Of a DNA stretch of 17,195 nt, positions 2,192-2,810 are shown piece by piece. Location: positions 1 to 17,195 of the forward strand of contig WGAL01000153.1 of assembly GCA_015494845.1 (NCBI GenBank), read 5' to 3'. The position numbers were made by a program, and so were the translations under genes. The notes beneath the pieces are model-generated. The model saw only the letters and a list, made by a program, of their open reading frames with translations, searched no databases and had not been told where the DNA came from. Within the stretch, counting starts at the first letter, position 1. Each line of letters begins with the position of its first letter. Source of the DNA: Melioribacteraceae bacterium (GTDB lineage Bacteria; Bacteroidota; Ignavibacteria; Ignavibacteriales; Melioribacteraceae).

Positions 2192-2698
2192 TCAGGAATT
2201 AAACAATTCACTTACTGTCATATTTCTTCTTTTTGCCATCGCTCTCGCGTCAACCAAGTTTAACAATCCCTGCATGGTCGCTTTTACTTGGTTATGCGGG
2301 TTGCTCGAACCCAAAGATTTTGTCAAAACGTCTTGAACGCCTGCAAGTTCCAAAACCGCGCGAACTCCGCCGCCTGCGATAAGTCCGGTACCAGGAGAAG
2401 CAGGTTTCAATAAAACTCTTCCTGCACCGTATTTACCGATAATTTCATGCGGAATCGTTCCGTTAATAACCGGAACTTTGTAAACGTTTTTCTTTGCGTC
2501 GTCAATACCCTTTGAGATTGCGTCAGTTACTTCGTTAGCTTTGCCCAAACCTACGCCTACGTGTCCGTTGCCATCGCCAACAACTACAATTGCGTTAAAG
2601 CTGAAACGGCGACCGCCCTTTACAACCTTTGCCACTCTGTTGATGTGAACAACCTTCTCTTTCAATCCGTCCAGTATTGTAACTTTCTTTGATCTCAA
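2192..2698 (-). CDS. rpsE: 30S ribosomal protein S5 (uS5)
   Basis: S5 lies at the mRNA entry side of the small subunit and takes part in decoding accuracy and mRNA helicase activity. The 168-residue product (E. coli 167) has the double-stranded RNA-binding-like N-terminal domain with VNRV-type and [20 protein letters not shown] motifs at about residues 18-46. The C-terminal domain contains [20 protein letters not shown] and the GSSNPHN motif. The start is TTG at 2698: no ATG or GTG gives a full N-terminus, and GGAG lies seven bases upstream. Unlike its neighbours it follows a 117-bp gap from rplR that contains a tRNA-Gln gene. After tRNA excision its message would have a 41-base A/U-rich leader. 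Confidence 0.97.
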
Positions 2699-2705
2699 TT
2701 TAATT

Positions 2706-2709
2706 CTCC
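2706..2709 (-). promoter_or_regulatory. Ribosome binding site supporting the TTG start of rpsE
   Basis: GGAG on the minus strand lies seven bases before TTG at 2698. This spacing supports TTG as the true S5 start. Confidence 0.75.
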
Positions 2710-2710
2710 G

Positions 2711-2736
2711 TTATTTCAAATTATTTCAAATTATTT
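2711..2736. repeat. Short tandem repeat between tRNA-Gln and rpsE
   Basis: The ten-base unit TTATTTCAAA occurs twice in tandem (2711-2720, 2721-2730), and a third partial copy starts at 2731. On the transcript strand this gives an A/U-rich, apparently unstructured run (AAATAATTTG units) directly before the rpsE ribosome site. It could act as an S1-binding or enhancer-like leader, or be neutral slippage expansion. It does not encode protein. Confidence 0.7.
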
Positions 2737-2739
2737 TAG

Positions 2740-2810
2740 CAGCCGGAAGAGGATTCGAACCTCTACATACGGCTCCAAAGGCCGCTGTCCTACCATTAGA
2801 CGATCCGGCT
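2740..2810 (-). tRNA. tRNA-Gln, anticodon TTG, embedded in the spc operon
   Basis: The minus strand folds into a complete cloverleaf of 71 nt. The acceptor AGCCGGA/TCCGGCT has seven Watson-Crick pairs. The D stem GTCT/GGAC has one G-U pair and a compact seven-base loop AATGGTA with GG. The anticodon stem GCGGC/GCCGT has one G-U pair. The loop CTTTGGA gives anticodon TTG (bases 2778-2776), which reads CAA and, by wobble, CAG. The variable loop has four bases. The T stem AGAGG/CCTCT has loop TTCGAAT. Discriminator G73 suits tRNA-Gln. CCA is not encoded (the 3' flank is CTA), so it must be added by nucleotidyltransferase. The gene starts 5 bp after the rplR stop and ends 41 bp before the rpsE start, on the operon strand. 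I see no promoter of its own, so it is probably processed from the ribosomal protein transcript. Confidence 0.97.

Follow-up and report, generated by a model that had tools for sequence, protein, structure and literature searches.

A gene for tRNA-Gln(UUG) sits between rplR and rpsE in the spc ribosomal protein operon of the window (the whole stretch of 17,195 nt analysed here), and a tRNA at this site is the standard arrangement in a clade of the class Ignavibacteria. The gene's position, its conservation, the compensatory changes in its stems and the single UUG copy among the typed tRNAs form the basis of a reading that we consider probable: a working tRNA-Gln(UUG) entered the spc operon once, replaced the usual copy and, in the window's order, is transcribed together with the spc message and excised from it.

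A tRNA-Gln gene inside the spc operon

On its minus strand the window carries the str, S10 and spc groups, from part of rpoC through secY, with gene names assigned from protein order and sequence. ARAGORN reported a tRNA-Gln with anticodon TTG at 2739-2810 on this minus (operon) strand, 72 nt long with A1-U72 as its first pair and no CCA encoded at its 3' end, and the Rfam model RF00005 matched 2740-2810 at 66.7 bits, which with a cut-off of 29 identifies a tRNA, while the UUG anticodon is that of a tRNA-Gln. Upstream on the same strand, rplR for ribosomal protein L18 (2816-3181; assigned as an open reading frame and from relatives) stops 5 bp before the tRNA, a minus-strand spacer (2811-2815) too short for a promoter. 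Downstream, the open reading frame of rpsE for ribosomal protein S5 (2192-2698, minus strand) opens with TTG behind a spacer (2699-2738, minus strand) that has no terminator-like site and contains, at 2706-2709 and seven bases upstream of that start, a GGAG likely to be the ribosome binding site. The whole rplR-rpsE distance thus comes to 117 bp, with 40-41 bp from tRNA to rpsE; remaining gaps from rplN to secY are at most 21 bp (lengths that depend on our choice of start codon for rplX and rpmD) and the rpsQ-rplN junction measures 26 bp. Separately, an apparent TTG start of rpsE (window 2696-2698) was seen in 13 of 14 tabulated genomes from the window's order, with or without the tRNA, and we reject the idea that this start is tied to the tRNA, non-ATG starts being common also in class members that lack it.

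A search for L18 matched 56 of 58 genomes, the window's own among them, and 30 loci (L001-L030) from the window's genome and its near relatives were fetched. The same tRNA follows rplR in all of them except one (L030 of G017), and two (L021, L027) have some 170 and 100 bp extra between rplR and the tRNA. When the 29 sequences, the window's included (25 distinct), were aligned, 21 of 21 stem pairs were kept in every one and 13 of these pairs change on both sides, compared with a mean of 4.9 in shuffles. Pairs that are kept while both partners change indicate that the tRNA is under selection and not a chance match. Together with the ARAGORN and Rfam results, this bears out what the first-pass annotation had read from the letters: a sound cloverleaf for tRNA-Gln(UUG) on the operon strand, 5 bp after the L18 stop and 41 bp before the S5 start, in a gene group whose other spacings stay below 30 bp. 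As a side observation, the insert of about 170 bp between rplR and tRNA in G055 (L021:1328-1497) carries short inverted repeats.

Spread, and probable gain and losses

Our class sample comprised 149 genomes, in 144 of which rplR was matched. Going by the best match of a tRNA-model search, at least 61 of the 149 have a tRNA that follows rplR at about 4-54 bp on the strand of that gene, and these positives fall under ten family codes (f1, f3, f8, f11, f13, f14, f15, f19, f20, f24); for family f2, the tRNA was seen in loci of the window's order. The comparison with related genomes that the earlier annotation had proposed for the rplR-rpsE spacer therefore comes out in favour of the gene, and conservation across so many genomes rules out the assembly join which that annotation had considered at this point. 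Elsewhere the site looks different. No tRNA was present in the stretch when 20 class loci without a model match were read (L090 of G160 reaching its contig end too early), nor at the site in eight further class loci (f18, f5, f4), nor between rplR and rpsE in 20 loci from other classes of the phylum; 15 additional class or phylum loci yielded two tRNA-Gln, the variant of G069 described below and twelve sites without a tRNA. An unfiltered search for tRNA remnants in 12 loci lacking the gene found none, its seven matches all scoring 10.8 bits or less. In a search with L18, the best 80 of 552 named records include four with the tRNA (L117, L118, L126, L146), all labelled Ignavibacteria or Ignavibacteriales, and a fifth record so labelled (L121) is without it. 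With four among these best 80, the earlier statement that no standard arrangement has a tRNA at this spot may hold for bacteria at large, but it fails for this clade.

One of the 61 positives, G069, has a GUG (His) anticodon on a tRNA-Gln body at the spc site (L068:1878-1949). In family f14, 17 other loci read UUG, two of them from the genus of G069 (neighbours were checked for part of these loci), and among 5 typed of 7 tRNA matches G069 itself showed no UUG tRNA-Gln. Since G069 alone has GUG, we rejected an anticodon change from Gln to His as a trend; perhaps it reflects one isolated change or an error in the assembly.

A tree built on ten linked proteins from 61 genomes gathers all 34 rows with the tRNA in one branch of 40 rows (SH-aLRT 99), six rows there being without it, and the tRNA label needs five changes on this tree as compared with a mean of 20.3 in shuffles, none of which (0 of 500) came as low. 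When 12 named records were added, all 38 tRNA rows again fell in one branch, now of 45 rows (SH-aLRT 99), and the change count stayed the same; in this second tree five Ignavibacteria records lie inside the class, which identifies it as Ignavibacteria, and Chlorobia are adjacent. As the simplest reading, one ancestral gain with about four losses would fit both trees, which come from quick searches, carry no bootstrap and contain one long row (f23); the direction of gain rests on the outgroup used for rooting. Entry into the spc operon may hence be pictured as a single event at the origin of a large clade inside the Ignavibacteria.

Copy number, proposed replacement and charging

A tRNA-Gln(UUG) of another type lies elsewhere in one genome each of f4, f6, f7, f10, f12, f16, f18, f22 and f23 and in two of f5, all of them lacking the spc tRNA, and this other type we take to be the usual bacterial one. 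It is from this usual tRNA-Gln(UUG) that the spc copy would have taken over. In the window's genome, all 17 of 17 tRNA matches could be typed and the tRNA-Gln count suggested by the first-pass annotation gave one UUG (the spc copy) and one CUG gene, a UUG count that is not final in a genome 78% complete with 17 tRNAs. In seven closed or nearly closed genomes (G012, G035, G046, G048, G049, G163, G072) no UUG besides the spc copy appears among the 30 typed of 61 matches, with untyped matches below 52 bits and the lowest typed UUG tRNA-Gln among the examined genomes at 64 bits; a very divergent tRNA-Gln could escape, and under the strict threshold of the tRNA-model search six class genomes were without any match. 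Exceptions to the single UUG copy do exist, as a second UUG tRNA-Gln is present in G105. Five genomes without the spc copy (G017, G061, G093, G064, G088) have their UUG tRNA-Gln elsewhere, that of G017 being of yet another type and located away from the spc site, and in G022 a tRNA-Gln(UUG) of different sequence occupies the spc site itself.

As for the source of the spc tRNA, an origin from tRNA-Glu, suggested by a tRNA-Glu-like D arm, is not supported by best identities: for 59 distinct spc-type D-arm sequences these average 68.0% to 14 tRNA-Glu(UUC), 72.6% to 11 usual-type tRNA-Gln(UUG) and 71.8% to 22 tRNA-Gln(CUG), in a comparison sorted by D-arm word from which 9 other UUG sequences, several of them from the spc site, were excluded. 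Nor did we find a simple link between the spc tRNA and a missing glutaminyl-tRNA synthetase, since many carriers have a synthetase match above 700 bits. Of the 149 class genomes, 76 have the enzyme above cut-off, G001 from the window's genus among them; the incomplete G000 gave no match, and f15 genomes as well as 7 of 11 f8 genomes gave none above cut-off.

Among alternatives to our reading, the one that survives best sees a neutral chance insertion, which became impossible to lose once it was the sole UUG tRNA-Gln and which has no regulatory meaning; we give it a real chance, albeit one short of even. Consistent with this, all five loss genomes that were examined have another UUG tRNA-Gln, and glutamine codon use in the window does not separate ribosomal proteins (CAA 67, CAG 14) from fusA, tuf, secY and the part of rpoC (CAA 56, CAG 13). 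What speaks against neutrality is that the tRNA persists over many families and that the sister class Chlorobia also has a tRNA in its spc operon.

Proposed transcription and processing, and parallels

In the window's order, the tRNA most likely forms part of the spc transcript. Between 2500 and 3800 the window has no terminator-like site (1.7 in shuffles) and one weak promoter-like site on the operon strand within rplR (2.6 in shuffles), in a consensus scan that could miss promoters inside rplR. Between rplR and the tRNA lie about 4-25 bp in 20 f1 and f3 genomes of this order and 28-54 bp in f8 and f15; since a protein match may stop short of the true end, these lengths may err by one codon. 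Of 41 loci from the order, 8 have a TAnnTTT box no more than 60 nt from the tRNA, and 2 a fuller two-box match within 150 nt. With so little room and no consistent box before the tRNA, co-transcription and excision are favoured there. RNase P would then cut the tRNA at its 5' end, with RNase Z or other nucleases acting at the 3' end and CCA being added later where it is not encoded. Excision would split the message in two, leaving an upstream piece that ends with rplR and a downstream piece that opens with rpsE and keeps its own likely ribosome binding site. Co-transcription and any dosage effect are inferred, as is the processing, which follows what is generally known of how tRNAs mature.

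Family f8 appears to depart from this. In its loci (L223-L226, L385-L391) 11 of 11 genomes, from 7 genera, have a TAnnTT motif that starts 10 nt beyond the rplR stop while the rest of the spacer differs, and with spacers resampled at order 1 none of 5000 draws contained it in more than 5 of 11, a figure that is descriptive as the motif was chosen after the sequences had been seen. In 8 of the 11, a loose TTTG-like box lies 17-22 nt upstream, where the conserved end of L18 already dictates part of the sequence. In f15 (L238, L239, L392-L397) a T-rich promoter-like element with TATATATATTTG is found between tRNA and rpsE in 8 of 8 genomes, and GCGGCCCTAACTC precedes the tRNA in five, with near forms in the remainder; this conservation is weaker evidence, seven of the eight genomes coming from one genus. 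According to passages of PMC7366714, Bacteroides promoters combine TTTG with TAnnTTTG, of which only the second is confirmed for Flavobacterium, and the f8 and f15 boxes resemble this promoter. Its fixed distance suggests that the f8 box is a candidate promoter for the tRNA itself, and co-transcription is therefore not universal. For the window's order, given its short gaps, no terminator-like site in the window and no consistent promoter box, it is plausible that the tRNA is made in proportion to ribosomal protein mRNA, as the first-pass annotation proposed, while the f8 candidate and the f15 element before rpsE mean that strict proportionality cannot be general.

Taking f8 as the guide, a separate promoter that overlaps the end of rplR might drive the tRNA, such that tRNA supply is independent and only the site is shared with the operon. 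To our minds this is rather improbable, as the narrow gaps in the 20 genomes of the window's order, the low number of its loci with a nearby box and a motif picked after viewing the sequences all argue against it. An equally doubtful view holds that the tRNA serves mainly as a cut site, which splits the spc message and sets the rpsE-secY half apart from the rplN-rplR half. A location kept over many families and the f15 element before rpsE are in line with it; however, the tRNA is the only UUG reader found and that need alone could explain why it is kept, G017 and families f5, f7, f10 and f18 manage without a tRNA here, and the f15 genomes come largely from a single genus. Slightly less doubtful, though still speculative, is the idea that spc tRNAs are built-in message dividers, with the rplR-rpsE break point later gaining a promoter for the tRNA (f8) or for rpsE (f15) and Chlorobia likewise using a tRNA-Gly at rplN-rplX. 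A single entry with replacement and, in the window's order, excision from the spc message is still the account that we prefer, and we hold back from greater confidence in it because of the separate-promoter evidence from f8, the four losses it needs and the weak promoter match in rplR. Between a coupling of tRNA supply to ribosomes, message division and neutrality, sequence alone does not decide.

Few bacterial gene orders are as stable as that of the spc operon. With a tRNA kept in this operon through most of a clade, and as the only UUG reader found, tRNA processing would become a constant part of how a ribosomal protein message is handled, and the losses, the possible promoter gains and the Chlorobia parallel offer natural comparisons for a link between tRNA supply and ribosome synthesis. 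In the Escherichia coli tufB operon (thrU-tyrU-glyT-thrT-tufB), tRNAs are cut from a joint transcript. Lying on the same strand, within the operon and with no intervening terminator-like site, the window's gene has the structure of a tRNA gene of this kind. Both systems join tRNA genes to a translation-machinery gene, the joint transcript here being a predicted one; but the tufB tRNAs lead an operon with EF-Tu, whereas here one tRNA, the only UUG tRNA-Gln found, lies in the middle of the spc operon.

A literature search, with most subscription journals outside it, listed nothing that deals with a tRNA gene inside the spc operon of Ignavibacteria or Chlorobia, and an operon gene list in PMC1924603 is without such a tRNA. 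In Chlorobia, a tRNA-Gly(UCC) lies between rplN and rplX in five gene-placed loci (L260, L261, L135, L149, L182). Like the tRNA-Gln of Ignavibacteria it is in the spc operon and on the same strand, but it is another tRNA in another gap of a sister class, and it is most simply seen as a separate insertion. Among 20 further loci of the phylum, 11 showed no tRNA in the upstream half of the spc operon and nine had tRNA-Gly(UCC) there (L365-L368, L373, L374, L382-L384), seven of these belonging to f31, one to f29 and one to f44.
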